DNA of 64,000 nucleotides. Origin: Bradyrhizobium sp. 170. Lineage in GTDB: Bacteria; Pseudomonadota; Alphaproteobacteria; Rhizobiales; Xanthobacteraceae. The first letter of the stretch is position 1. The number at the start of each line of letters is the position of its first letter. Both the position numbers and the translations under genes were made by a program. Positions 30,059 through 45,680 of the stretch are shown here, in pieces. The notes below the pieces were generated by a model that was given only the letters and a program-made list of their open reading frames with translations, was not told the origin of the DNA and made no database searches. Location: assembly GCF_023101085.1 (NCBI RefSeq), contig NZ_CP064703.1, forward strand, positions 3,224,001-3,288,000, read 5' to 3'.

Positions 30059-31318
30059 ATGACCGTTTATTCCGGTCCGGTGTTCGACATGGCGGTTAAC
30101 CAATTTGGCGTCATCGCCAACCATCTCGAAATCCCGATGGACGAGCGCGACCGAATTCTGATGCCGAAGCGGGCCATCACTGTTTCCTGTCCGATCCATC
30201 GCGACGACGGCACGGTCGCCGTATTCGAAGGCTACCGGGTGCAGCATCATCTCACCCTCGGCCCGACCAAGGGCGGCACGCGATTCGCGCCTTCTGTCGA
30301 CATCGGCGAGGTCGCGGCCCTTGCGATCTGGATGAGCTGGAAATGCGCGCTGGTCGGGCTGCCCTATGGCGGCGCCAAGGGCGGCGTCAATGTCGCTCTC
30401 TCCACCATCTCCAAGCGCGAGCTGGAAGCGCTGTCGCGGCGCTACATGCAGGAGATGATTCCGTTCGTCGGTCCGCATACCGACGTGATGGCGCCCGACA
30501 TGGGCACCAATGAGCAGGTGATGGCCTGGTTCATGGACACCTATTCGATGTACCAGGGCCGCACCGTGACCGAGATCGTGACCGGCAAGCCGGTATCGTC
30601 GGGCGGCACGCTCGGCCGGCGCGAGGCCACCGGGCGCGGCGTCGCCTATCTCGCCAGGCGCGTGCTGAAGGAGCTCTCGATCAATCTAGGCACCGCGACT
30701 GCCGTCATTCAGGGCTTTGGCAATGTCGGCTCCTATGCCGCGCTGGAGCTGCATCAATATGGCTTGAAGATCATCGCCGTCAGCGATCACACCGGCGCGC
30801 TGCACGATCCGGCCGGGCTCGATATTCCCGCGCTGATGAAGCACGCGGGCGCGCATGGCAGTATCGCCGGTTTCTCGAACCAGTTGGCCTTCGATTCCGA
30901 GCAAATCCTGACGCTGCGCTGCGACGTGCTGGTGCCGGCGGCGATGGAGCGGGTGATCGACGCCAAGGTCGCGGAAAATCTGAAATGCCGGGTGCTGGCC
31001 GAAGGCGCCAATGGCCCGACCACGCCGGATGCCGATCTGGTGCTGGAAAAGCGCCAGGGCGAAGTGTTTTTGATCCCCGACATTCTCTGCAATTCCGGCG
31101 GCGTGGTGGTCAGCTACTTCGAATGGGTGCAGGACCTGCAGCAATTGTTCTGGGAAGAAGAGGAGGTGACGCGGCGCGAATACGCCATCCTCGATCGCGC
31201 CTTTGACAACATGGTGCAGCGTGCCAATGCCGACAAGATTCCGCATCGCACCGCGGCGATGGCGATCGGCGTGGAGAAGGTTCGCGCCGCCAAGAACACG
31301 CGGGGACTCTTCCCGTGA
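30059..31318 (+). CDS. Glu/Leu/Phe/Val dehydrogenase (glutamate dehydrogenase-type)
   Basis: 419 aa, after a GGAGGGAAG ribosome site. Conserved parts are HHLTLGPTKGGTRF, GLPYGGAKGGVNVAL (catalytic Lys region), VMAPDMGTNEQVMAWFMDTY and VIQGFGNVGSYAALELHQYG (NAD motif). ILCNSGGVVVSYFEWVQD near the C-terminus is typical of glutamate dehydrogenases. It deaminates an amino acid oxidatively or the reverse; glutamate is the most likely substrate. Its stop overlaps the GTG start of the VOC gene. Confidence 0.88.
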   Translation: MTVYSGPVFDMAVNQFGVIANHLEIPMDERDRILMPKRAITVSCPIHRDDGTVAVFEGYRVQHHLTLGPTKGGTRFAPSVDIGEVAALAIWMSWKCALVGLPYGGAKGGVNVALSTISKRELEALSRRYMQEMIPFVGPHTDVMAPDMGTNEQVMAWFMDTYSMYQGRTVTEIVTGKPVSSGGTLGRREATGRGVAYLARRVLKELSINLGTATAVIQGFGNVGSYAALELHQYGLKIIAVSDHTGALHDPAGLDIPALMKHAGAHGSIAGFSNQLAFDSEQILTLRCDVLVPAAMERVIDAKVAENLKCRVLAEGANGPTTPDADLVLEKRQGEVFLIPDILCNSGGVVVSYFEWVQDLQQLFWEEEEVTRREYAILDRAFDNMVQRANADKIPHRTAAMAIGVEKVRAAKNTRGLFP

Positions 31319-32157
31319 TCACCGGCCTCGACCACGTCGTTGTTCTCACCGGCGACATCAACGCGGCCTCCGCCGCTTACCAGACCTTGTTTGCCCGCGC
31401 GCCGGCCTGGCAGTACGGCGGCGGGGGCGCCGACCGCGTCCTGTTCACGCTCGACAACACGACACTGGAACTGGTTGCGCCGAATGGCGATGACGCCAAC
31501 GCGGACCGCATTCGCGCGGTGCTGGCCGCACAGGGCGAGGGGCTGGCAAGCATCTGCTTCCGGACCAGCGACATCGCCAGGACGCATCGCAGGCTGGATC
31601 GGCTGACGCTGAAGCCTGATGCCATTGCCGAGGTCGAAAGCCACGACGCGATCTCAGGTGCGACGCTGGCATGGAAGCGGACCCGCGCCGCGACCGAAGC
31701 CACGCGCGGCGTCCGCATGTTCTTCCTCGAACGCGACAAGGAGCGGCCGCTGTCGGTGCGAACCACGGCCGGATCGATCACGGCGATGGACCATGTCGTG
31801 GTCTCGACGTCAGACCCCGAGCGGGCCGCCGCGCTCTATGGCGCGCGGCTCGGCCTCGACATGGCACTCGACCGCTCGCATCCCGATTGGGGTCGGCTGA
31901 TGTTCTTCCGCTGCGGCGACTTGATTGTCGAGGTCACACACCGGCCAGGCAAGCAGGCCGACACGACGCAGGACCGGCTTCGCGGCCTGTGCTGGCGCGT
32001 CTCCGACATCGACGCCACCCATGCGCGGCTGGTTGACGCCAGTGTCGACGTCTCGGAAGTCCGCACCGGCCGCAAGCCGGGAACGCGGGTCATGACGGTG
32101 CGGGGTGGCACGTGCGGCGTCCCGACGCTGCTGGTGCAGCCGTCGGCTGGGCCATGA
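31315..32157 (+). CDS. VOC-superfamily protein (two-module glyoxalase-like)
   Basis: 280 aa. Translation starts at GTG 31315, overlapping the dehydrogenase stop in GTGA, so coupling is likely. Module 1 begins ITGLDHVVVLTGDINAASAA and module 2, after residue 150, begins ITAMDHVVVSTSDPERAAAL. Each has the VOC strand order (FTLDNTTLELVAP; FFRCGDLIVEVTHRPGK). Metal ligands would be the His of each GLDH/AMDH and the Glu residues. Substrate unknown. The downstream TetR-type gene is on the same strand. Confidence 0.82.
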   Translation: MITGLDHVVVLTGDINAASAAYQTLFARAPAWQYGGGGADRVLFTLDNTTLELVAPNGDDANADRIRAVLAAQGEGLASICFRTSDIARTHRRLDRLTLKPDAIAEVESHDAISGATLAWKRTRAATEATRGVRMFFLERDKERPLSVRTTAGSITAMDHVVVSTSDPERAAALYGARLGLDMALDRSHPDWGRLMFFRCGDLIVEVTHRPGKQADTTQDRLRGLCWRVSDIDATHARLVDASVDVSEVRTGRKPGTRVMTVRGGTCGVPTLLVQPSAGP

Positions 32158-32159
32158 TC

Positions 32160-32195
32160 TTTCCCTTCTCCCACAAGGGGAGAAGGGGAAGAGCG
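32160..32195. repeat. Short palindrome TTCCCTTCTCCCACAAGGGG... (partial dispersed repeat)
   Basis: CCCTTCTCCC (32163-32172) and GGGGAGAAGGGG (from 32177) pair around ACAA just after the VOC stop. The sequence is part of a common intergenic hairpin of these genomes and may act as a terminator without a T tract. Confidence 0.5.
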
Positions 32196-32264
32196 GCGCC
32201 TGCTCGTTCTCAAAGCTTTCCGCGCGTGCTACAGCTTGCTTCGTGCAACTATCGAGCAACTGAT

Positions 32265-32972
32265 TTGGCAAAGGCAAAACGCGTTCAGAAATGGCAGCGC
32301 GACCCCGAGGGGATGCGGCTCCGCATTCTCGAGGCCGCCAAGCAGGAATTCGCCGCCCATGGCCTGGCCGGCGCCCGCGTCGATCGCATCGCGGCCAATG
32401 CCGGCGCCAACAAGCGCATGCTGTATTACCACGTCGGCAACAAGGAAGATCTCTACCTTGCGGTGCTGGAAGGCGCCTATGAGAAGATCCGTTCCGAGGA
32501 GCGCGGGCTCGACCTCGAACATCTCGATCCGCCCGAGGCGATCGAACGGCTGATCGACTTCACCTGGAACTATTTCCTCCGCAACCCGGAATTCCTGGCG
32601 CTGCTCAATACCGAAAATCTCGCCAAGGCGCGCCATCTGAAGCGCTCGACCAAGGTCAAATCGATGCATTCGCCGTTCGTCGAGATGATCCGCACCGTGG
32701 TGACGCGTGGCGTCGTAAGCGGCGATTTTCGCGTCGCGGTCGACCCGGTCCAGCTCTACATTTCGATCGCAGCGCTGTGCTTCTTCTATCTCTCCAACAG
32801 CGCCACGCTCTCGGTGATCTTCGGCCGCGACCTCCTGAAGAAGGAGGCGAGGGACGAACGTCTCGCCCACATGGTGGCGCTGGTGCTGGCGGCGCTGACG
32901 GGCAAGTCGACGGCGGATTTTGGTAAGGCCGTGGGGCAGGGCGTGCGCGCACCGGCACATCAGCCGGTTTGA
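32265..32972 (+). CDS. TetR-family transcriptional regulator (RutR-like)
   Basis: 235 aa if started at TTG 32265 (MAKAKRVQKWQRDPEG), which restores the usual N-terminus of this group; GTG 32226 is an alternative, and neither has a strong ribosome site. The helix-turn-helix is MRLRILEAAKQEFAAHGLAG to IAANAGANKRMLYYHVGNKE. The C-terminal ligand domain (ERLIDFTWNYFLRNPEFLAL, YISIAALCFFYLSNSATLSV) is RutR-like. It lies just before the ABC importer and enzyme cluster on the same strand and is the best candidate for its regulator, although a palindromic repeat separates them. Confidence 0.82.
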   Translation: MAKAKRVQKWQRDPEGMRLRILEAAKQEFAAHGLAGARVDRIAANAGANKRMLYYHVGNKEDLYLAVLEGAYEKIRSEERGLDLEHLDPPEAIERLIDFTWNYFLRNPEFLALLNTENLAKARHLKRSTKVKSMHSPFVEMIRTVVTRGVVSGDFRVAVDPVQLYISIAALCFFYLSNSATLSVIFGRDLLKKEARDERLAHMVALVLAALTGKSTADFGKAVGQGVRAPAHQPV

Positions 32973-33004: not shown

Positions 33005-33123
33005 GTCGTCCCTGCGAACGCAGGGACCCATACGCCGCGGCCTCTCGGTTTAGACGTTAGTCGTTGATCCTGCTGTCACAATTGACGCCGGTGGCTATGG
33101 GTTCCTGCTTCCGCAGGAACGAC
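33005..33123. repeat. Palindromic repeat, GTCGTCCCTGC family, copy 4 (diverged)
   Basis: Left arm from 33005 (GTCGTCCCTGCGAACGCAGG), right arm TATGGGTTCCTGCTTCCGCA to 33123 with several changes. A partial extra left arm (GTGTCGTCCCTGCTC) starts just before at about 32987, showing a small tandem duplication. It sits between the TetR-type and permease genes. Confidence 0.82.
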
Positions 33124-33208
33124 AAAATACCGCACGAAAACCCGCTTGCCAGTATTTATCCAACGGGTTAATTTCTTCCCCGAAAAGACGATCATCAGGG
33201 AGCGGGAC

Positions 33209-34018
33209 GTGGCGGAGCTGAAGCGCGAGAGCGGCTTGTCGAAAGCGCTGAACGCGGCGTGGGTGCGGCCGTTTCTATTCCTGCTCTTCATCGTGGTGAT
33301 GTGGGACCTCACCATCCGCCTGTTCCAGATTCCGGCCTACCAGATCCCCGCGCCCGGCGATGTCGTGGCTGTGCTGTGGACCGATTGGCCAGAGCTGCTG
33401 CGGCAGGCCTGGCCCACCACCTACGCCACCATATGCGGCTTCCTGCTGTCGGCGCTGTTCGGCATTCCCGTCGCGATGCTGATCGCGGGATCGAAGACGG
33501 TGGAAAGCTATGTCTATCCGCTGCTGGTGTTCTCGCAGTCGGTGCCGAAGATCGCGATCGCGCCGCTGTTCGTAGTCTGGTTCGGCTTCGGCATTATCCC
33601 GAAAGTGATCTCGGCGTTCCTGCTCGGGTTCTTCCCGGTGGTGGTGTCCGCCGTGCAGGGCTTCAAGTCGGTCGATCCTGACATGGTCGATCTCGCGCGC
33701 GCGATGCAGGGCAGCCGCTTCCGCGTATTTTGCGCCGTCAACCTGCCGCATGCGATGCCCGCGATCTTCTCCGGGCTGAAGGTCTCCATCACGCTCGCTG
33801 TGGTCGGCGCCGTGGTCGGCGAGTTCGTCGGCTCCAATTCCGGTATCGGCTATGTGCTGCAGCGCTCGATCGGCACCTTCGATCTGCCGACGATGTTCGC
33901 GGCACTCGTGATTCTTGCGCTGCTCGGCGTGGTCCTGTTCTGGATTGTCGATCGGATCGAAAGCCTCGTGATCCCCTGGCATGTCAGCCAGCGCGAGGAC
34001 ATCATTTTTGCTGCGTAA
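33209..34018 (+). CDS. ABC transporter permease, NitT/TauT (SsuC/TauC) type
   Basis: 269 aa from GTG 33209, with AGGGAG seven bases before; a TTG at 33146 is in frame but has no site. Six hydrophobic segments. The coupling loop reads FRVFCAVNLPHAMPAIFSGL KVS in the place of the EAA motif. RPFLFLLFIVVMWDLTIRLF is the first membrane helix. Sequences such as FSQSVPKIAIAPLFVVWFGF are typical of nitrate/taurine/sulfonate importers. It starts a cluster with a binding protein and an ATPase of the same class and four enzyme genes. Confidence 0.88.
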   Translation: MAELKRESGLSKALNAAWVRPFLFLLFIVVMWDLTIRLFQIPAYQIPAPGDVVAVLWTDWPELLRQAWPTTYATICGFLLSALFGIPVAMLIAGSKTVESYVYPLLVFSQSVPKIAIAPLFVVWFGFGIIPKVISAFLLGFFPVVVSAVQGFKSVDPDMVDLARAMQGSRFRVFCAVNLPHAMPAIFSGLKVSITLAVVGAVVGEFVGSNSGIGYVLQRSIGTFDLPTMFAALVILALLGVVLFWIVDRIESLVIPWHVSQREDIIFAA

Positions 34019-34047
34019 GGACCGCTGAACGAAAACAACAAACAGGA

Positions 34048-34155
34048 CGTCATTGCGAGCGCAGCGAAGCAATCCATAGCGCCGCAGGTGGAGGAATGGA
34101 TTGCTTCGCTTCGCTCTCTTGCACAAACGCTTCGCGTTTGTCGCAGGCAATGACG
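34048..34155. repeat. Palindromic repeat, CGTCATTGCGAGC family
   Basis: Outer ends CGTCATTGC (34048-34056) and GCAATGACG (34147-34155) are inverted. Inside, GCGAAGCAATCCAT pairs with ATGGATTGCTTCGC, and ACAAACGCTTCGCGTTTGT forms a second hairpin. It lies between the permease and binding-protein genes of the ABC cluster and ends inside the upstream alternative start of the latter. It is a different family from the GTCGTCCCTGC repeats. Confidence 0.85.
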
Positions 34156-34176
34156 AAGCAAAACGGGAGGATGACC

Positions 34177-35175
34177 ATGATACGAGTGTTAGCGGCGATC
34201 TCCGCCGCCCTGATCTGGACCGCGCTTTCAGTGCTTCCCGCATCGGCCGCCGACAAGGTCGTGCTGATGCTGAACTGGTACGTCTATGGCGAGCACGCGC
34301 CGTTCTATTACGGCAAGGCCAAGGGCATCTATGCCGCCGAGGGCATCGACCTCGAAATCCAGGAAGGCCGCGGTTCGGCGGCGACCACGCAGGCTGTTGC
34401 AGCCAAGACCGCCAATTTCGGATACGTTGACGTGCCGACCATGATGCGCGCGGCCGTGAAGGGCGCGCCGATCGTCGCCACCGGCGTATTGCTGCAGACC
34501 AGCCCGATGTCGGCGATGGGCTTTGTCGAAAAGAACATCAAGAAGCCCGAGGACATCAAGGGCAAGACGGTGGCGATCACGCCGGCCGATTCCATGACGC
34601 AGATCTGGCCGCTGTTCCTGAAGAAGACCGGCCTGAAGGAAAGCGACTTCCAGACGGTGGCCGGCGACGGCCAGACCAAGCTGAACGCCGTCATCAACGG
34701 CCAGGCTGACCTCTTGCTCGGCTACGTCATGGATCAGTCGATGAAGATCAAGGACGCCACCGGCAAGGACGTCAACGCGATCAAGTTCGCCGACTACGGC
34801 ATCAACATGGTCTGCTCGGGCGTCGTCGCCAACACCGAGTTCGTCAAGGCCAACGCCGATCTGGTCAAGCGCTTCATGTCGGCGACGACAAAGGCGGTCG
34901 AAGCCGCCGAGAAGGATGCCAAGGGCGCCGCGCAGTCGATCCTCGACGCCAACCCGAAGGGCGGCAAGATCGAAACGCTGACGCAGGGCTTTGAGCTGAC
35001 GATCCCGCTCTATCGTACGGCGGAAACCAAGGGCAAACGGCCGTTCCAGGTGACCGACCAGAACATGACCGACACGGTCAATCTGATGGTCGAATATGGC
35101 GGGTTGGATGCCAAGGCCAAGGATAATCCGAAGGCGTTTTATACCAACGACTACCTGCCGCAGGGCGGTTCGTGA
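34177..35175 (+). CDS. ABC transporter substrate-binding protein, NMT1/THI5-like
   Basis: 332 aa from ATG 34177, six bases after GGGAGG; two earlier ATGs (34150, 34171) are badly spaced. The signal peptide MIRVLAAISAALIWTALSVL ends in PASA/ADKVV. The mature protein starts VVLMLNWYVYGEHAPFYYGK and GIYAAEGIDLEIQEGRGS, the standard opening of NMT1/SsuA-type binding proteins. The CCCFC motif of true thiamine-pyrimidine synthases is absent. NitT/TauT-class binders take up nitrate, sulfonates, pyrimidines, riboflavin and aromatic acids, so the ligand is open. No TPP riboswitch is visible upstream. Confidence 0.88.
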   Translation: MIRVLAAISAALIWTALSVLPASAADKVVLMLNWYVYGEHAPFYYGKAKGIYAAEGIDLEIQEGRGSAATTQAVAAKTANFGYVDVPTMMRAAVKGAPIVATGVLLQTSPMSAMGFVEKNIKKPEDIKGKTVAITPADSMTQIWPLFLKKTGLKESDFQTVAGDGQTKLNAVINGQADLLLGYVMDQSMKIKDATGKDVNAIKFADYGINMVCSGVVANTEFVKANADLVKRFMSATTKAVEAAEKDAKGAAQSILDANPKGGKIETLTQGFELTIPLYRTAETKGKRPFQVTDQNMTDTVNLMVEYGGLDAKAKDNPKAFYTNDYLPQGGS

Positions 35176-35196
35176 GGGGCCTTTGAAGATTCTATC

Positions 35197-35314
35197 GTCG
35201 TCCCCGCGCACGCGGGGACCCATAGCCACCGGCCTGAGTTGTTGCAGAAGGTCTCTACCGCCGTGTCCGAACGAAAGGACACGGCGTATGGGTCCCTGCG
35301 TTCGCAGGGACGAC
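35197..35314. repeat. Palindromic repeat, GTCGTCCCTGC family, copy 5
   Basis: The left arm (35197-35224) begins GTCGTCCCCGCGCACGCGGG and the right arm (to 35314) ends GCGTTCGCAGGGACGAC. The arm bases have changed together on one side (CCCCGCGCACGCGGGG keeps its own pairing). It lies between the binding-protein and ATPase genes of the ABC cluster. The centre shares CCACCGGCC and AGTTGTT with copy 1. Confidence 0.88.
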
Positions 35315-35350
35315 GGGCTGTGGGAGACTTTCCCAAATGGAATCAGCTGA

Positions 35351-36199
35351 ATGAATCCCGCGACCAAACAAACCAACGCCGATCAGCCAGGCGCGCATCT
35401 GCGCCTGGTGTCGGATCGCGCCGGCGGCGCTGCGCCGGGCATCACGCTATCAGGCGTCTCGAAAACCTATCGTTCGCGCGACGGCGACGTGCCGTCGCTG
35501 CGGCCGCTGGATTTTCACATCAATGAGGGCGAGTTCTTCGTCGTGGTCGGCCCGTCCGGTTGCGGCAAGTCCACGCTCCTGAAAATGATCTCCGGGCTGC
35601 TGGCGCCGTCGACCGGGGAAATCCTGGTCGAAGGCGAGCAGGTGACGAAACCACATGGCAATGTCGGCATCGTGTTCCAGAACGCGCTGCTGCTGCCCTG
35701 GCGCAACATCCTTTCCAACGTGATGTTGCCGATCGATATGAAGAAATTGCCGCGCAACGAATATCTGCCGCGGGCGAAAGCGCTGCTGAAACTGGTTGGC
35801 CTCGAAGGTTTCGAGAAGAAACTGCCCTGGCAGCTCTCCGGCGGCATGCAGCAACGCGCCTCGATCTGCCGGGCGCTGGTGCACGATCCCAAGATCATGC
35901 TGATGGACGAGCCGTTCGGCGCGCTCGACGCCATGACGCGCGAGAAGATGAATGTCGAACTGATGCGGATCCAGCGCGAGACCGGCAAGACCGTGCTCCT
36001 GATCACGCATTCGATTCCGGAAGCGGTATTCCTCGCCGACCGTGTGCTGGTCATGACCGAACGGCCCGGGGCGATCGCGGCGATCTACGACGTGCCGCTG
36101 CCGCGCCCGCGCTCGCTGGATGCGATGGCCGATCCCGCCTTCACCGAACTGGTGCAGCGCATCCGCAAGCATTTTTTCACCCAAAGCGCGCTGGACTGA
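35351..36199 (+). CDS. ABC transporter ATP-binding protein, NitT/TauT (SsuB) type
   Basis: 282 aa. Walker A VGPSGCGKSTLLKMISGLL, Q-loop GIVFQNALLLPWRNI, signature QLSGGMQQRASICRALVHDP, Walker B IMLMDEPFGALDAMTR and H-loop VLLITHSIPEA are all intact. The WRN after the Q-loop and the DEPFGALDAMTR string are typical of nitrate/sulfonate importers. A 30-residue low-complexity N-terminus precedes the domain. It completes the importer whose permease starts at 33209 and is 11 bases before the enolase-superfamily gene, tying the importer to the enzymes. Confidence 0.9.
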   Translation: MNPATKQTNADQPGAHLRLVSDRAGGAAPGITLSGVSKTYRSRDGDVPSLRPLDFHINEGEFFVVVGPSGCGKSTLLKMISGLLAPSTGEILVEGEQVTKPHGNVGIVFQNALLLPWRNILSNVMLPIDMKKLPRNEYLPRAKALLKLVGLEGFEKKLPWQLSGGMQQRASICRALVHDPKIMLMDEPFGALDAMTREKMNVELMRIQRETGKTVLLITHSIPEAVFLADRVLVMTERPGAIAAIYDVPLPRPRSLDAMADPAFTELVQRIRKHFFTQSALD

Positions 36200-36210
36200 A
36201 AGCTGGCTCG

Positions 36211-37614
36211 ATGCCGTATCGCTTGGCCGTACGCGATATATCGTTCCTTGAGCGCCCGGTCACTTTCGCCCGGCCGTTCCGGTTCGGTGCGGTCGTCATC
36301 AACGCGACGCCGCAAGCTTTTGTGCGCGTCGAGATCGAGGTGGAAGGCGAGGGCAGGGCGACAGGGGCCAGCGCCGAATTTCTGGTGCCGAAGTGGTTCG
36401 ACAAGCGGCCGCCTCTGTCGCCGGAAGAGACAGTGACGGAACTGCGGCGCTCGCTGCTGATCGCGCGAGACATTTATCTTTCCCATTCAACCTTCGACAC
36501 AGCGTTTGGCCTCCACGCAGCCTGTATCGGCGCGCAGATCGAGGCTTGCGCCCGCGAAGACATTCCACCGCTCGCTGCGACTTACGGACCGGCCGAAATC
36601 GACAAGGCGATCCTCGATGCACTGCTGCGCAGCGCCGGGGTCAACTTCTTCGCTGGCATGTCCGATAATATCGCGGGCGTTGATGCGCGGCTGTCGCGCG
36701 ATCTTGGCGATGAAGATGTCGCGCGGTTTCTCGCGAGCCGAAAGCGGCTGGAGCGCGTCGCGATCCGGCACACCGTCGGCATGGATGATGGAATCGAAGG
36801 CGACGGCGGCGTTGCCGACCAGAAGGAAAACGCCAGCGCTCGCTATTTCAAGCTCAAGCTCAACGGAGACCCCGCGCATGATGCGGATCGCTTGATCCGG
36901 ATCGGCAGGGAACTCGCCACGCTGCCGTATGACTACCGCGTCACGCTCGACGCCAATGAACAATATGCCGATCTGGTTGCCCTGGGCGCACTCGTCGAGC
37001 GCCTCGACCGCGACGCTGCGCTACGGCCGATCGCGGCAAAACTGCTCTACATCGAGCAGCCGATGCCGCGCGACATCACGCGGCAGTCGCCGCTCGGCGC
37101 GCTGGCGCGGCGCGATTTCATCGTCGACGAGGCCGATGACTCCTACGATGCATTCCCGATTGCACGAGCGCTCGGCTACCGCGGCATCTCCTCGAAGTCC
37201 TGTAAAGGTATCTACAAGTCGGTCATCAACGCGGCGCGCGCGGTGAAATGGAGCGCGAACGGTGAAAAATCCTTCATCGCCGGCGAAGACCTGACCTGTC
37301 AGGCGGGACTGGCGGTGCAGCAGGATCTCGCGCTCGGCGCGCTGATCGGGGTCACCCATGCCGAGCGCAACGGCCATCATTACGTCGACGGCTTTGGCGA
37401 CACGCCGGCCGCCGAGGCGGAGGCGTTCCTTGCGGCGCATCCCGATCTCTATGTCCGCGACGGAGACAAGATCCGCCTCGCGATCCACGACGGCGATCTG
37501 CTGACGGGATCGCTGACGGCACCCGGTTTCGCCACATCCGTTCATCCGGATTGGTCCACGATGCAGCCGCTGGCGCAGCCGGCAACACGAATTCCCCTGG
37601 AGAAAGCAGTATGA
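36211..37614 (+). CDS. Enolase-superfamily enzyme (mandelate racemase/muconate lactonizing-like)
   Basis: 467 aa from ATG 36211 (MPYRLAVRDISFLERPVTFA). Barrel motifs of the superfamily appear in order: KLKL (RYFKLKLNGDPAHDADRL), metal ligand Asp in RVTLDANEQYADL, Glu in LLYIEQPMPRDIT, Asp-Glu in DFIVDEADDSYDAFP, and a Lys/Ser-rich strand RGISSKSCKGIYKS. These enzymes abstract a proton alpha to a carboxylate and then racemise, dehydrate or cycloisomerise. It is somewhat longer than the usual 370-400 aa, with an extended N-terminal capping region. Its stop overlaps the next gene start (ATGA). Which reaction it does is unknown. Confidence 0.8.
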   Translation: MPYRLAVRDISFLERPVTFARPFRFGAVVINATPQAFVRVEIEVEGEGRATGASAEFLVPKWFDKRPPLSPEETVTELRRSLLIARDIYLSHSTFDTAFGLHAACIGAQIEACAREDIPPLAATYGPAEIDKAILDALLRSAGVNFFAGMSDNIAGVDARLSRDLGDEDVARFLASRKRLERVAIRHTVGMDDGIEGDGGVADQKENASARYFKLKLNGDPAHDADRLIRIGRELATLPYDYRVTLDANEQYADLVALGALVERLDRDAALRPIAAKLLYIEQPMPRDITRQSPLGALARRDFIVDEADDSYDAFPIARALGYRGISSKSCKGIYKSVINAARAVKWSANGEKSFIAGEDLTCQAGLAVQQDLALGALIGVTHAERNGHHYVDGFGDTPAAEAEAFLAAHPDLYVRDGDKIRLAIHDGDLLTGSLTAPGFATSVHPDWSTMQPLAQPATRIPLEKAV

Positions 37615-38762
37615 CGACCAAACGCCTCGGCCTGATCATGAACGGCGTGACCGGCCGCATGGGGCTCAACCAGCATCTGATCCGCTCCATCATCGCGATC
37701 CGCGACCAGGGCGGCGTGGTGCTTGCGAACGGCGACCGCATGCTGCCCGACCCGATCCTGATCGGCCGCGACGCGGACAAGGTGGAGCGGCTCGCCAAGC
37801 GCTTCAACGTCGAGCGCTGGTCGACCGATCTCGACAAGGCGCTGGCCGACAAGAACGATACGATCTTCTTCGACGCCGCCACCACGCAGGCGCGACCGTC
37901 ACTGCTGACCAAGGCGATCAATGCCGGCAAGCACGTCTATTGCGAGAAGCCGATCGCGACCAACCTGGAAGAGGCGGTCGCGGTCCTCAAGCTCGCCAAC
38001 GCCAGGGGCGTCAAGCACGGTACGGTGCAGGACAAGCTGTTTTTGCCGGGCCTGAAGAAGCTCGCTTTCTTGCGCGATTCCGGCTTCTTCGGCCGCATGC
38101 TCTCGGTGCGCGGCGAGTTCGGCTACTGGGTGTTCGAGGGCGGCTGGCAGGAAGCGCAGCGGCCGTCGTGGAACTACCGCAGCGAGGATGGCGGCGGCAT
38201 CATTCTCGACATGGTCTGCCACTGGCGCTACGTGCTCGATAATCTCTTCGGCGAGGTTGAGAGCATCTCTTGCCTCGGCACGACGGATATTCCCGAACGC
38301 TTCGACGAGAAGGGCAAGAAGTACACGGCGACCGCCGATGACTCTGCCTATGCCACCTTCCGCCTCAAGGGCGGTGTGATCGCGCACATCAACATGAGCT
38401 GGGTGACGCGGGTCTACCGCGACGATCTCGTCACCTTCCAAGTCGACGGCACCCACGGCTCCGCGGTGGCAGGCCTGACCGATTGCGTGATCCAGGCCCG
38501 GCAGGCGACGCCGCGTCCGGTCTGGAATCCGGACGAAAAGCGCACCCACGATTTCTACGCCGACTGGCAAAGGGTTCCGGAAAACGTCGTCTACGACAAC
38601 GGCTTCAAGGAGCAGTGGGAGATGTTCATCCGCCACGTCTGCGAGGACGCGCCCTATAAATACACGCTGCTGGAAGGCGCCAAGGGCGTGCAGCTTGCCG
38701 AATGCGCGCTGCAGAGCTGGCGCGAGCGGCGCTGGATCGACGTCGCCCCGATCAAGGTGTGA
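37611..38762 (+). CDS. Gfo/Idh/MocA-family oxidoreductase
   Basis: 383 aa, starting in an ATGA overlap with the enolase-superfamily gene. The nucleotide-binding region is unusual: LGLIMNGVTGRMGLNQHLIR in place of GxGxxG. The catalytic Lys is in HVYCEKPIATNLEEAV; the active-site segment is GGGIILDMVCHWRYVLDNLF with Asp and His where sugar dehydrogenases of the family have them. It would oxidise or reduce a ring or chain hydroxyl. Twelve bases separate it from the DUF993 gene. Confidence 0.87.
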   Translation: MTTKRLGLIMNGVTGRMGLNQHLIRSIIAIRDQGGVVLANGDRMLPDPILIGRDADKVERLAKRFNVERWSTDLDKALADKNDTIFFDAATTQARPSLLTKAINAGKHVYCEKPIATNLEEAVAVLKLANARGVKHGTVQDKLFLPGLKKLAFLRDSGFFGRMLSVRGEFGYWVFEGGWQEAQRPSWNYRSEDGGGIILDMVCHWRYVLDNLFGEVESISCLGTTDIPERFDEKGKKYTATADDSAYATFRLKGGVIAHINMSWVTRVYRDDLVTFQVDGTHGSAVAGLTDCVIQARQATPRPVWNPDEKRTHDFYADWQRVPENVVYDNGFKEQWEMFIRHVCEDAPYKYTLLEGAKGVQLAECALQSWRERRWIDVAPIKV

Positions 38763-38774
38763 GGAGGCCCAACC

Positions 38775-39968
38775 ATGAACAAGCCTGTCCTGCCGATGTC
38801 ATCGCTGTCGCTAAAGCTGCCGACGGCGGATCGTTCGGTCGAAACCTATCGCCTTGCAGCGTCGCGTACGTTTCCGGCGAAACTCGAAGGTACGCTCAAC
38901 CGCGTGGCCTTCTCGGCTGCCCATGTGGTGGCCGATCCGCTTGCCGATAACGATCCCTGGCTTAACGCTGCGATCGACTGGGACCGCACCATAGCGTTCC
39001 GAGAGCACGTCTGGGATCTCGGCCTCGGCGTCGCCGAAGCGATGGACACCGCGCAGCGCGGCATGGGCCTGGATTGGCCGACCTCGCTGGAACTGATCCA
39101 GCGCTCGGTGAAGGCGGCCAAGGCGCGCGGCAATGCGCTGGTGTTTTCCGGAGCCGGCACCGACCACCTTGCGGTCGAAGACGCAAAATCCATCGACGAC
39201 GTGATCCGCGCCTATGAGGAACAGATCGCGGCGGTGGAGAAGGCCGGCGGCCGCATCATCCTGATGGCGTCGCGCGCACTTGCAAAACTTGGCCGTAGCG
39301 CTGACGACTACGCAAAGGTCTATAACCGCGTGCTCGGCCAGGTCCGCGAACCTGTGATCATTCATTGGCTCGGCGACATGTTCGATCCGGCGCTCGCGGG
39401 CTACTGGGGCACGGCAAATCTCGACAAGGCGATGGATACGGCGGTCGCCATCATCAACGCCAACGCGGCCAGGGTTGATGGAGTAAAAGTCTCGCTGCTC
39501 GACAAGCAGCGCGAGATCGACATGCGCCGGCGGCTGGACAAGAACGTCAAGATGTATACCGGCGACGACTTCAACTACGCCGAACTGATCGCCGGCGACG
39601 ACCAAGGCTTTTCGCACGCGCTGCTCGGCATCTTCGATGCCATCGCGCCGGCGGCGTCCTATGCGCTGTCGCGGCTGGCTGCCGGCGATGAGGCCGGCTT
39701 CCACGATGTGCTGGGGCCGACCGTGCCGCTGTCGCGCCACATCTTCCGGGCGCCGACGCGGTTCTACAAGACCGGCATCGTGTTCATGGCCTACCTCAAC
39801 GGCCATCAGGATCATTTCACCATGGTGGGTGGGCAGGAAAGCACGCGCTCGACGCTGCATCTGGCCGAGCAGTTCCGTTTGGCCGACAAGGCCGGGCTGC
39901 TCTCCAACCCCGAAATGGCGACACGGCGCATGAAGACGGTGCTGGCAACCCGCGGCATCGAGCCCTGA
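38775..39968 (+). CDS. DUF993 (dihydrodipicolinate synthase-like) protein
   Basis: 397 aa, preceded by GAGGAGG. The translation (LPTADRSVETYRLAASRTFP, FREHVWDLGLGVAEAMDTAQ, NALVFSGAGTDHL, VIIHWLGDMFDPALAGYWG) matches my memory of DUF993, a family that NCBI groups with dihydrodipicolinate-synthase-like aldolases. VDGVKVSLLDKQREIDM contains a Lys in the place expected for the Schiff base of class I aldolases (inference). A retro-aldol or hydrolytic C-C cleavage would fit its position after an oxidoreductase. The last base of its stop is the first base of the next gene's ATG. Confidence 0.75.
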   Translation: MNKPVLPMSSLSLKLPTADRSVETYRLAASRTFPAKLEGTLNRVAFSAAHVVADPLADNDPWLNAAIDWDRTIAFREHVWDLGLGVAEAMDTAQRGMGLDWPTSLELIQRSVKAAKARGNALVFSGAGTDHLAVEDAKSIDDVIRAYEEQIAAVEKAGGRIILMASRALAKLGRSADDYAKVYNRVLGQVREPVIIHWLGDMFDPALAGYWGTANLDKAMDTAVAIINANAARVDGVKVSLLDKQREIDMRRRLDKNVKMYTGDDFNYAELIAGDDQGFSHALLGIFDAIAPAASYALSRLAAGDEAGFHDVLGPTVPLSRHIFRAPTRFYKTGIVFMAYLNGHQDHFTMVGGQESTRSTLHLAEQFRLADKAGLLSNPEMATRRMKTVLATRGIEP

Positions 39969-40831
39969 TGCGCGATTTTTCTTCCGATCATCGCTGGCTG
40001 TCGCTGAACACGGCGACGGTCCGCAAGCAGGGCGATCTCGTCGCCATCATCGAGGCCTGCGCGCGGCACGGCATCCGCGCCATCGATCCCTGGCGCGACC
40101 AGGTCGCGGCCGTCGGCCTCGATCGCGCGGTACGGGCGGTACGCGACGCCGGGCTTGAATTGTCAGGCTATTGCCGCGGCGGCATGTTCACCTCCGATGC
40201 GGCGCACCGCATCGAGGCGCGTGACGACAATCGACGCGCCGTCGACGAAGCCAAGGCGCTGGGCGCGCCCTGCATCGTGCTGGTCGTCGGCGGCCTGCCG
40301 CAATATTCGCGTCCGGGAAGCGCGGCCTCGAAGGACATTGCGGGCGCGCGGACGCAGGTCCGCGACGCCATCGCCGAAATGCTGGAATACGCAAAGCAGG
40401 CCAACATGCCGCTGGCGATCGAGCCCTTGCATCCGGCCTATGCAGCCGACCGTGCCTGCGTGAATATGACGAAGCAGGCGCTGGACATTTGCGACCAGCT
40501 CGATCCGCAGCGCACCGGCGCGCTCGGTGTCGCGCTCGACGTCTATCACATCTGGTGGGATCCGGAATTGATGCCGCAGATCGCGCGCGCGGGAAAAGAT
40601 CGCCTGCTCGCGTTTCACGTCTGCGACTGGCTGGTGCCGACCAAAGATCTCCTCAACGACCGCGGCATGATGGGCGACGGCGTCATCGACATCCCATCTG
40701 TGCGATCGGCGGTCGAGGCGCAGGGCTTTGCCGGCTATTCCGAGATCGAAATCTTCTCCGACGACTGGTGGGGAAAGCCGATGGACGAGGTTCTGAAGAT
40801 TTGCATCAAACGGCATCGGACGGTCGTTTAG
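39968..40831 (+). CDS. Sugar phosphate isomerase/epimerase (xylose isomerase-like TIM barrel)
   Basis: 287 aa. The AP-endonuclease-2 type barrel shows the metal-site residues: Glu in LAIEPLHPAY, Asp and His in VALDVYHIWWDPEL, His in LLAFHVCDWLVP and Glu in YSEIEIFSDDWW. Relatives isomerise or epimerise keto-sugars, dehydrate inosose (IolE) or act as hydrolases. The start is one-base overlapped with the DUF993 stop (TGATG), the tightest coupling in the operon. It is the last gene of the cluster. Confidence 0.85.
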   Translation: MRDFSSDHRWLSLNTATVRKQGDLVAIIEACARHGIRAIDPWRDQVAAVGLDRAVRAVRDAGLELSGYCRGGMFTSDAAHRIEARDDNRRAVDEAKALGAPCIVLVVGGLPQYSRPGSAASKDIAGARTQVRDAIAEMLEYAKQANMPLAIEPLHPAYAADRACVNMTKQALDICDQLDPQRTGALGVALDVYHIWWDPELMPQIARAGKDRLLAFHVCDWLVPTKDLLNDRGMMGDGVIDIPSVRSAVEAQGFAGYSEIEIFSDDWWGKPMDEVLKICIKRHRTVV

Positions 40832-44459: not shown

Positions 44460-45680
44460 CTAACTGATCTTGCAGGGCACGTGCAAAAATCCGCGGAAGC
44501 GCACGCGGCCGCCGCGAACCGGCGCGCCGGCGAGCGCATAATCCGGAAAGCGCGCGAGGAAATGCGAGATCGCTATCGCGCCCTCGAGCCGCGCCAGCGC
44601 CATGCCGGCGCATTGATGCGCGCCGGTGCCGAAGGCCAGATGCCGGTTTGGCGTACGGCCGATATCGAAACGTTCGGGATCGGCGAACTGCGCGGGGTCG
44701 CGGTTGGCGGCGCCGATGCACAACGTCACCGGCGTGCCTGCGGGCAACGCGACGCCGCCGAGCTCAAACGGCTCGACGGTCATGCGGTTGCCGAGCTGGT
44801 TGGAGCTCTCGAACCGCAGCATTTCCTCGACCGCAGTCTTGATCAGCGAAGGGTCTTCGATCAATCGCCGTTTCTCGCTTGCATGGTTCGACAGCGCCAC
44901 CAGCCCGTTGCCGATCAGGTTGGTGGTGGTCTCGTGGCCGGCATTGAGCAGGAAGATGCAGTTGTGCAGCAGCTCCTTTTCGGTCAGCCGCTCGCCATTG
45001 TCTTCGCCCTGAATGAGCCGCGTCAGCACGTCTCGGTCGGGATTGCCGGGCTTCGCCCGCCGCCGGGCCACCAGCCCTTCGAGGTACGACAGGAAGTCCT
45101 GCACCGCCTTGTTGCCGCGGGCAAAGACGTCCGGGCCGATCACCGGCTCCAGCGCGCCAAGGATGGCCAGCGACCAGTCGCGCAAGGGCTCGCGCTCGTC
45201 CTCGGGAACGTCGAGCAGGTTGCCGATCACCTCGATCGGGATCGCGGCGGCGAAATCGTCGATCAGGTCCACCTTGCCCTTGACGGCGATGGCGTCGAGG
45301 AGGCGCTCGACCAGCCGGATCAGGTCGGGCTCCATGCCGGCGATTGCGCGCGGCGAGAGCGCACCCATGATCAGGCGGCGGACGCGGGTATGGGCGGGAG
45401 GATCGTTGAAGACGAGGCTCGTGGTGTGGTGCTCGTAGAGCAGGGAAGCACCGTACTTCGGTGAGAACTCCTTCTTCTTGTCCGAAGAGAAGGCCTTGGT
45501 GTTCTTGTAGGCTGCGACCAGGTCGTCGTAGCGGGTCAGGAAATACGAGCCGTTCGGCAGCCGCTTGACCGGATCGGTCTCGCGCAGCGCGCGATAGGTC
45601 GGGTAGGGGTTGGCATAGAACTCCGGCGTCAGCTTTTCGAGGTCGAAGGTGGCCGCCAGTTCGCGCGCATCCAAATTCAT
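44460..45680 (-). CDS. Cytochrome P450
   Basis: 406 aa, standard for a soluble bacterial P450. The I-helix has NAGHETTTNLIG, the K-helix ExxR is in AVEEMLRFESSNQLGN, and the haem loop is LAFGTGAHQCAGMALARLEG with the thiolate Cys near residue 357. It monooxygenates an unknown substrate and needs a ferredoxin and reductase; a reductase of suitable type is encoded at 25682 but not linked. It is divergent from a TetR-type gene across 306 bases containing two inverted repeats. Confidence 0.92.
   Translation of the reverse strand: MNLDARELAATFDLEKLTPEFYANPYPTYRALRETDPVKRLPNGSYFLTRYDDLVAAYKNTKAFSSDKKKEFSPKYGASLLYEHHTTSLVFNDPPAHTRVRRLIMGALSPRAIAGMEPDLIRLVERLLDAIAVKGKVDLIDDFAAAIPIEVIGNLLDVPEDEREPLRDWSLAILGALEPVIGPDVFARGNKAVQDFLSYLEGLVARRRAKPGNPDRDVLTRLIQGEDNGERLTEKELLHNCIFLLNAGHETTTNLIGNGLVALSNHASEKRRLIEDPSLIKTAVEEMLRFESSNQLGNRMTVEPFELGGVALPAGTPVTLCIGAANRDPAQFADPERFDIGRTPNRHLAFGTGAHQCAGMALARLEGAIAISHFLARFPDYALAGAPVRGGRVRFRGFLHVPCKIS

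Follow-up and report, generated by a model that had tools for sequence, protein, structure and literature searches.

Two clusters in other bacteria resemble the locus described here, positions 33209 to 40831 of a 64,000-nucleotide stretch of Bradyrhizobium sp. 170 (assembly GCF_023101085.1, contig NZ_CP064703.1, positions 3,224,001 to 3,288,000; the whole stretch is referred to as the window). In this locus genes for an ABC importer of the NitT/TauT type are followed by genes for four enzymes: an enolase-superfamily protein (ENO), a Gfo/Idh/MocA-type oxidoreductase (GFO), a DUF993 protein and a TIM-barrel protein (TIM). In S. meliloti Ak57 homologues of the TetR regulator upstream of the locus and of GFO, DUF993, ENO and TIM also lie together, but the importer is of the CUT1 sugar type, three further Gfo/Idh genes are present and the order is GFO-DUF993-ENO-TIM. 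Judging from the names of the solved structures and the table in PMC12542648, we infer that this is the SMc0413x cluster with SMc04130 (PDB entry 3ju2) and SMc04132 (4dnh). The Ak57 record (locus L179) is labelled pSymB although it comprises 3.7 Mb and holds the SMc-numbered homologues, and the replicon label may be wrong. In the sugar gene cluster of the Paenarthrobacter megaplasmid pAO1 (L182, 4756-11373), which we take to be the proposed xylose pathway, GFO and DUF993 are adjacent as in the window, whereas the importer is of the CUT2 type, a GMC oxidoreductase, an aldehyde dehydrogenase and a glycerate kinase are added, and neither ENO nor TIM is present in the stretch viewed. Searches of the open-licence literature, with which subscription papers could be missed, revealed no named pathway for this set of enzymes, in agreement with the first-pass annotation of the locus, and no described job for DUF993; by title, none of the papers retrieved for pAO1 together with xylose deals with the GFO-DUF993 cluster of pAO1.

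The host genome is a single contig of 9.2 Mb. The locus comprises seven open frames on the + strand with intact start and stop codons, which are preceded by the regulator gene:

32112..32972, + strand: TetR-family regulator (PF17938, 1.6e-42; PF00440, 1e-11)
33209..34018, + strand: ABC permease, NitT/TauT type (PF00528, 2.4e-33; GTG start, TTG at 33146 as alternative)
34171..35175, + strand: periplasmic binding protein, NMT1/THI5-like (PF09084, 2.1e-43; ATG at 34171 or 34177)
35351..36199, + strand: ABC ATPase, NitT/TauT type (PF00005, 2.2e-33)
36211..37614, + strand: ENO, predicted enolase-superfamily protein with the lysine pair of the muconate-lactonizing subgroup
37611..38762, + strand: GFO, Gfo/Idh/MocA-type oxidoreductase (PF22725, 3.2e-23; PDB entry 3oqb, E 9.3e-242)
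38775..39968, + strand: DUF993 protein, class I aldolase (DHDPS/NAL) fold, candidate Schiff-base lysine K238 (Pfam, 632 bits)
39968..40831, + strand: TIM, AP_endonuc_2 (xylose isomerase-like) barrel (PF01261, 2.4e-38)

Our preferred reading, to which we assign a probability of about 50%, is that these genes form an operon, linked to TetR, for the import and breakdown of a polyhydroxy carboxylate, a sugar-acid-like compound used as carbon source. The NMT1-type importer would bring the compound into the cell. ENO, presumably metal-dependent and with lysines on both faces, would take the proton alpha to the carboxylate and epimerise or cycloisomerise the compound; GFO would then oxidise a hydroxyl group with NAD(P), and K238 of DUF993 could form a Schiff base with the resulting ketone, leading either to retro-aldol C-C cleavage or to elimination of water. 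TIM, as a putative metal-dependent isomerase, would convert a product into a form that feeds central metabolism, probably as a C3 compound (glycerate or pyruvate). Gene content, conservation, folds (predicted for ENO, predicted and solved for DUF993), conserved active-site residues and the persistence of the enzyme set under importer exchange are observations, whereas substrate class, reaction order and cleavage by DUF993 are inferred. It had been proposed before that a carboxylated or cyclic polyol-like compound is imported and then broken down; the class of chemistry was right, while substrate and reaction order are tentative.

The linkage of importer and enzymes is more than chance, since the gene order is retained in all testable close relatives and the importer trio recurs before ENO outside the family. 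By DUF993 similarity the closest relatives are for the most part Bradyrhizobium records, and the Bradyrhizobium-type loci were taken as the best 80 of 550 confirmed DUF993 stretches, hence few other genera are among them. In 67 of 67 such loci with enough flanking DNA the genes for TetR, permease, binding protein, ATPase, ENO, GFO, DUF993 and TIM are collinear on one strand. Outside the family the NitT trio, with its order and strand preserved, directly precedes ENO-GFO-DUF993-TIM in five loci (L133, L139, L156, L173 and L180), from Chelatococcus, Azospirillum and three further genomes (two related at phylum level only). The identity to the importer of the window is 53-77% for the binding protein, 66-71% for the permease and 61-69% for the ATPase, which argues that the importer serves the pathway in the window. 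A two-domain glyoxalase-like gene (31315-32157) precedes TetR and is present in most Bradyrhizobium-type loci, but no counterpart was detected in the DNA fetched for the five outside loci. The idea that the operon is an accident of Bradyrhizobium synteny was therefore rejected: importer and enzymes recur in order outside the family and the glyoxalase neighbour does not.

The same observations bear on a rival explanation, according to which the enzymes are catabolic but the NitT/TauT importer is a mere neighbour carrying an unrelated nutrient or a cofactor precursor. The exchange of the importer in most lineages would fit this view, as would the gaps and repeats that part the importer genes and the THI5/HMP-type among the solved relatives of the binding protein (4nmy, THI5 and an HMP-type binding protein). 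Given the trio in order in the five outside loci and in 67 of 67 testable Bradyrhizobium-type loci, and the contrasting behavior of the glyoxalase gene, we regard a mere neighbour as quite improbable.

Within the genus, DUF993 was detected in 56 of 60 surveyed genomes and ENO in 55: ENO is likewise missing from the four DUF993-free genomes, and a fifth genome contains DUF993 but no ENO. As DUF993 is near-universal in the sampled Bradyrhizobium genomes, the substrate of the operon probably matters in soil or on roots. Two records titled Frankia sp. RB7 (L077) and Reyranella MAG (L019) contain Bradyrhizobium-type genes with about 89-91% DUF993 identity, for which mislabelling, contamination or transfer may account.

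Beyond the genus DUF993 is patchy. It was detected in 36 of 398 genomes of a phylum-wide set that included the genus of the window, in 40 of 150 genomes of the order and in none of 14 control genomes. For the analysis of neighbourhoods 76 loci were fetched (60 from genomes and 16 from plasmid records); a 91-residue fragment (G516), small pieces (G107) and a weak match (G287) had been excluded. After removal of one locus from the same family (L149) and one from the same genus (L220) 74 loci remained, 58 from genomes and 16 from plasmids. The plasmid loci were hand-picked from 147 match records and are not random, and DUF993 outside the phylum of the window is sampled only by a few of these rows. 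Genomes G438, G472 and G503 contributed two loci each, and loci from one genus are not independent, so that Fisher values calculated for them serve for description only. Neighbours were scored by similarity to reference proteins with identity thresholds, so that diverged neighbours are missed (e.g. in L189), and because several loci are truncated at contig ends (e.g. L147, L157, L160, L205, L212-L215 and L219) absences are to be read as lower bounds.

Orthologs of GFO are present in 37 of the 74 loci, accompanied by TIM in 36, TetR in 29, ENO in 14, a second TIM protein in 11 and glycerate kinase in 5. ENO was found in the same 14 of 74 loci, every one of the GFO type. The importers of these 37 loci differ: TctABC in 15, the NitT trio in 5, diverged NitT-like sets in 2 (L136 and L215), CUT1 in 4, and MFS or TRAP alone in 1 each. 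The remaining 9 contain none of the listed importer classes; CUT2 genes are present in two of them (L177 and L182), and contig ends truncate several. NitT-like matches on the opposite strand of L165 were not counted as its importer. From gene lengths TRAP had been guessed to be the second importer class, but this was rejected, as annotation and Pfam identified TctABC. Matches to the TRAP large permease occur in 2 of 37 loci, both on the opposite strand: in L187 TRAP is the sole importer class, and L168 (31% identity) also has TctABC.

The enzymes are thus the core, staying together while the importer is exchanged, and the NitT/TauT importer is one of several; a tie of the enzymes to NitT/TauT import was rejected, because importer classes are exchanged across loci and tree. 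The first-pass annotation had regarded a NitT/TauT importer with sugar-type enzymes as unusual and distinctive, which did not hold, TctABC being the commonest choice. Its view of importer and enzymes as one unit stood for the 67 Bradyrhizobium-type loci and the five outside loci, and elsewhere the enzymes are not bound to this importer; accordingly, enzymes without the importer in related genomes, which it had named as counter-evidence, were encountered outside Bradyrhizobium and not within it. The stable unit is a dehydrogenase with DUF993, often with TIM, while the importer is a replaceable front door and ENO an accessory (14 of 37 GFO-type loci). The exchange also narrows the substrate to compounds that organic-anion transporters and sugar ABC importers could both supply, directly or after conversion.

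A quick tree of DUF993 with 76 rows, which includes the window, L149 and L220 and in which 22 of 73 inner branches are weakly supported, revealed clustering of the locus types, with 12 changes compared to a mean of 33.8 after shuffling (as low in 0 of 200 shuffles). At least 8 changes of importer class fall within the GFO type, a count that has no shuffle control. The split DUF993 of L152 was left out as too short, and L167, L181 and L211 are labelled GMC in the tree, whereas the neighbour table gives an SDR upstream.

The other 37 loci are not of the GFO type. They comprise SDR-DUF993-TIM, in some cases with acyl-CoA dehydrogenase and electron-transfer flavoprotein; GMC-SDR-GMC-DUF993-LacI, which is combined with CUT1; a divergent LacI type that contains CoA-transferase and enoyl-CoA hydratase genes and, as a rule, one for aldehyde dehydrogenase; and two loci in which the neighbour is shikimate-dehydrogenase-like. 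A few loci are unassigned. Over all 74 loci dehydrogenases of four kinds are positioned directly upstream of DUF993 in 56, which, together with a predicted fusion protein (P0282), suggests that DUF993 consumes a ketone. P0282 is a single metagenomic protein of 696 residues in which a beta-hydroxyacid dehydrogenase is joined to DUF993, possibly a gene-calling artefact; its dehydrogenase part is nearest to threonate dehydrogenase, under the cut-off. Glycerate kinase is found near 11 of the 74 loci, suggesting a C3 product. Two SDR-DUF993-TIM loci (L184, 1232-12827, and L181, 1710-15069) are coupled to acyl-CoA dehydrogenase and electron-transfer flavoproteins, and L184 additionally contains CoA-transferase, enoyl-CoA hydratase and glycerate kinase, an unusual mixture of CoA- and sugar-type enzymes.

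With slightly less assurance than for the operon itself, and short of even odds, we propose that an undescribed carbon pathway has DUF993 at its centre, as the enzyme that cleaves a C-C bond or opens a ring. DUF993 would act by a Schiff base on a ketone from an adjoining dehydrogenase (Gfo/Idh, SDR, GMC, shikimate-dehydrogenase-like or beta-hydroxyacid), the core would be served by at least five importer classes in Proteobacteria and Actinobacteria, and ENO would be an entry step through which an additional substrate is taken in. We class the operon with the catabolic import-plus-enzyme kind, and its interest lies in DUF993 and not in any exotic mechanism. Gene neighbourhoods strongly link four enzyme types for which no joint function is described, and the function of one member, once established, would aid annotation across a large family of at least 8,000 members, all 8,000 scored candidates having matched.

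A ring as substrate has also to be considered, i.e. a cyclitol or a cyclohexane carboxylate resembling quinate, shikimate or inositol. GFO would then make a ring ketone, the lysine of DUF993 would eliminate water or open the ring, and TIM would dehydrate further. Type I dehydroquinase is the comparison for lysine-based elimination of water from a ring, and inosose and dehydroshikimate dehydratases are the comparison for the step of TIM. In 2 of 74 loci a shikimate-dehydrogenase-like gene is located directly upstream of DUF993 (L175, with the substrate domain, and L209, a 42% relative). The best NCBIfam match of GFO is inositol 2-dehydrogenase (71.8 against a cut-off of 355, outside the IolG equivalog), a second TIM protein in L174 weakly matches QuiC (3.5e-6, far under the cut-off), and the acyl-CoA dehydrogenase of L184 has acryloyl-CoA reductase as its top match, followed by cyclohexane-1-carbonyl-CoA dehydrogenase, neither of which reaches the cut-off. 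All of these NCBIfam matches are, however, sub-threshold, glycerate kinase is ill-suited to aromatisation, and relatives of ENO are situated beside KduI/IolB and GH39 or near a sugar ABC importer. In the operon of the window no quinate or shikimate dehydrogenase was found, GFO belonging to the Gfo/Idh family, and IolB, IolC and IolD are not among the seven genes, all of which are of other families. A ring therefore appears unlikely to us; the importer classes and the relatives of ENO, beside KduI/IolB and GH39 or near a CUT1 importer, favour the polyhydroxy carboxylate.

Enzymes of the Gfo/Idh and TIM-barrel families also act in biosynthesis, and the set might serve to synthesise or alter a metabolite (such as an uncommon sugar or a signal), with no breakdown of a nutrient. 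A listed importer class near 28 of 37 GFO-type loci, TetR near 29 of 37 and the glycerate kinases render this very improbable.

Several results weigh against breakdown of a polyhydroxy carboxylate by a single operon. Of the 74 loci 18, many of them of the divergent LacI type, lack a dehydrogenase gene immediately before DUF993. CoA-transferase in 22 and enoyl-CoA hydratase in 19 of the 37 non-GFO loci are atypical for sugar-acid aldol pathways; at the thresholds used both are present in 0 of 37 GFO-type loci, but in L189, of this type, genes annotated as enoyl-CoA hydratase and CaiB-type CoA-transferase lie about 4-6 kb away, and L180 shows a 32% match. The PF02595 glycerate kinase was not found in the Bradyrhizobium sp. 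170 genome by a search that covered this one of the two glycerate kinase types. In TY medium SMc04132, SMc04133, SMc04135, SMc04138 and SMc04139 of S. meliloti were lowered in the phbC phaR strain compared to phbC, according to PMC12542648; the evidential weight of this co-change is low, as many of the proteins in the module were detected in one medium only. Another S. meliloti gene, smc04396, is reported to be dextrin-induced (PMC4960864), and we make no tie between it and any DUF993 locus. Finally, the importer genes are parted by repeat-bearing gaps of 152 bases (permease to binding protein) and 175 bases (binding protein to ATPase), so that co-transcription of the whole operon is only putative. 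The junctions further downstream are tight, with 11 bases between ATPase and ENO, a 4-base ATGA overlap of ENO and GFO, 12 bases between GFO and DUF993 and one base shared by DUF993 and TIM, and a single transcript from ATPase to TIM is therefore likely; the order and junctions noted earlier were exact for these genes on recheck.

Enzyme classes had initially been guessed from the translations, and Pfam backs the calls for BPD_transp_1, NMT1, ABC_tran, GFO_IDH_MocA, DUF993 and AP_endonuc_2. The guess of a class I aldolase was borne out in that DUF993 has the dihydrodipicolinate synthase (DHDPS) fold, as seen in a predicted model and a solved relative, with a suitable lysine. It shares the TIM barrel and the Schiff-base-type lysine position with the DHDPS/NAL superfamily (YagE, HOGA, DHDPS), but it is about 100 residues longer, forms a separate Pfam family and has 12-18% identity to the listed structures except 4dnh. 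K238 is invariant (76 of 76 sequences) and aligned with the GIK lysine at E 0.3. The likewise invariant Y210, 28 residues before K238, and a GxGTD stretch at 126-130 are, by spacing alone, candidates for the tyrosine and carboxylate motifs; hhalign with two DHDPS-family proteins was uninformative. Members are now often annotated as 'dihydrodipicolinate synthase family', and the solved homologues of three of the four enzymes carry only generic names in the PDB (4dnh and 3ju2, uncharacterized protein; 3qc0, sugar isomerase; 3oqb, oxidoreductase).

The assignment of ENO to the enolase superfamily, with the lysine pattern of the muconate-lactonizing enzyme (MLE) subgroup, is supported by profile and predicted model. 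The 467-residue protein had no match in Pfam, even at E 10, or NCBIfam, and a single-sequence phmmer search of the PDB gave none. A profile from six ENO sequences retrieved MLE-type enzymes, and the predicted fold, a capping domain with a modified TIM barrel, matched the same enzymes; on these matches an erroneous superfamily call was rejected. The metal ligands D247, E282 and D306, aligned with 3rit, and the lysines K214 and K216 (KxK, strand 2) and K329 (strand 6) are conserved in 16 of 16 sequences, the strands being assigned from the secondary structure of the model. In comparison with members of the MLE/dipeptide-epimerase subgroup, which have about 370 residues, ENO is longer and shows 10-19% identity to the listed structures.

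GFO comprises a Rossmann and a C-terminal domain, and its EKP motif and the D-x3-H pair D200 and H204, as expected for Gfo/Idh/MocA proteins, are present in 36 of 36 sequences. TIM retains the E-D-H-E metal site (E152, D191 and E261 in 46 of 46 sequences, H217 in 45 of 46). Its structural relatives are 3ju2 (SMc04130) and 3qc0 (E 5-7e-99), and a further homologue, 7vpf (2e-69), bears the PDB name 'Xylose isomerase'.

The importer consists of a BPD_transp_1 permease, an NMT1-family binding protein and an ABC ATPase, the classes that also make up the NitT/TauT importers for nitrate, taurine, sulfonate and HMP. In contrast to these, the genes of the window score below the cut-offs of the listed specific NCBIfam models: the best models for the permease (SaoP, TauC and SsuC) are all under cut-off, the ATPase reaches 230 bits with the taurine-type model (cut-off 357), and none of the three falls within an equivalog for a named substrate (taurine, nitrate or sulfonate).

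ENO is also found in other carbohydrate-type clusters that lack DUF993. Plasmid searches gave an ENO match in 92 Rhizobium records; relatives with 43-44% identity lie in a DUF993-free cluster (L178, 4327-10380, which carries ENO only, and L224, 4325-10380) with an oligopeptide-type ABC importer, KduI/IolB, GH39, a TIM barrel and a 2-hydroxyacid dehydrogenase. Relatives with 31-33% identity on haloarchaeal plasmids are close to Gfo/Idh genes (L221, 7941-9392, and L222, 7995-9443), in L222 additionally with sugar isomerase and acetylxylan esterase genes. A Glaciihabitans plasmid (L189, L223) harbors a GFO-DUF993-TIM-glycerate kinase set; at a distance of about 16 kb it carries a separate Gfo/Idh-TIM-ENO set, which is accompanied by CUT1 importer genes and a gene of the DHDPS family.

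The start of the TetR open reading frame (ORF) is uncertain and probably too early, as TetR_N begins only at residue 72. Palindromic repeats occupy the gaps among TetR, permease, binding protein and ATPase:

33005..33123: palindromic repeats in the TetR-permease gap (repeat families D1 and D3; inverted pairs I1 and I2)
34049..34155: dispersed palindromic element in the permease-binding protein gap (I4, I8)
35196..35315: palindromic repeat in the binding protein-ATPase gap (inverted pair I3)

Promoter and terminator scans of the locus gave signals at shuffle level only, and an Rfam search of the locus gave no match. The 105-base element of the permease-binding protein gap recurs in the genome with 72 matches on two strands (40 scored of 192 first-look candidates). 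Further downstream in the window, the translation of an ORF at 44460-45680 reads by eye as a cytochrome P450.

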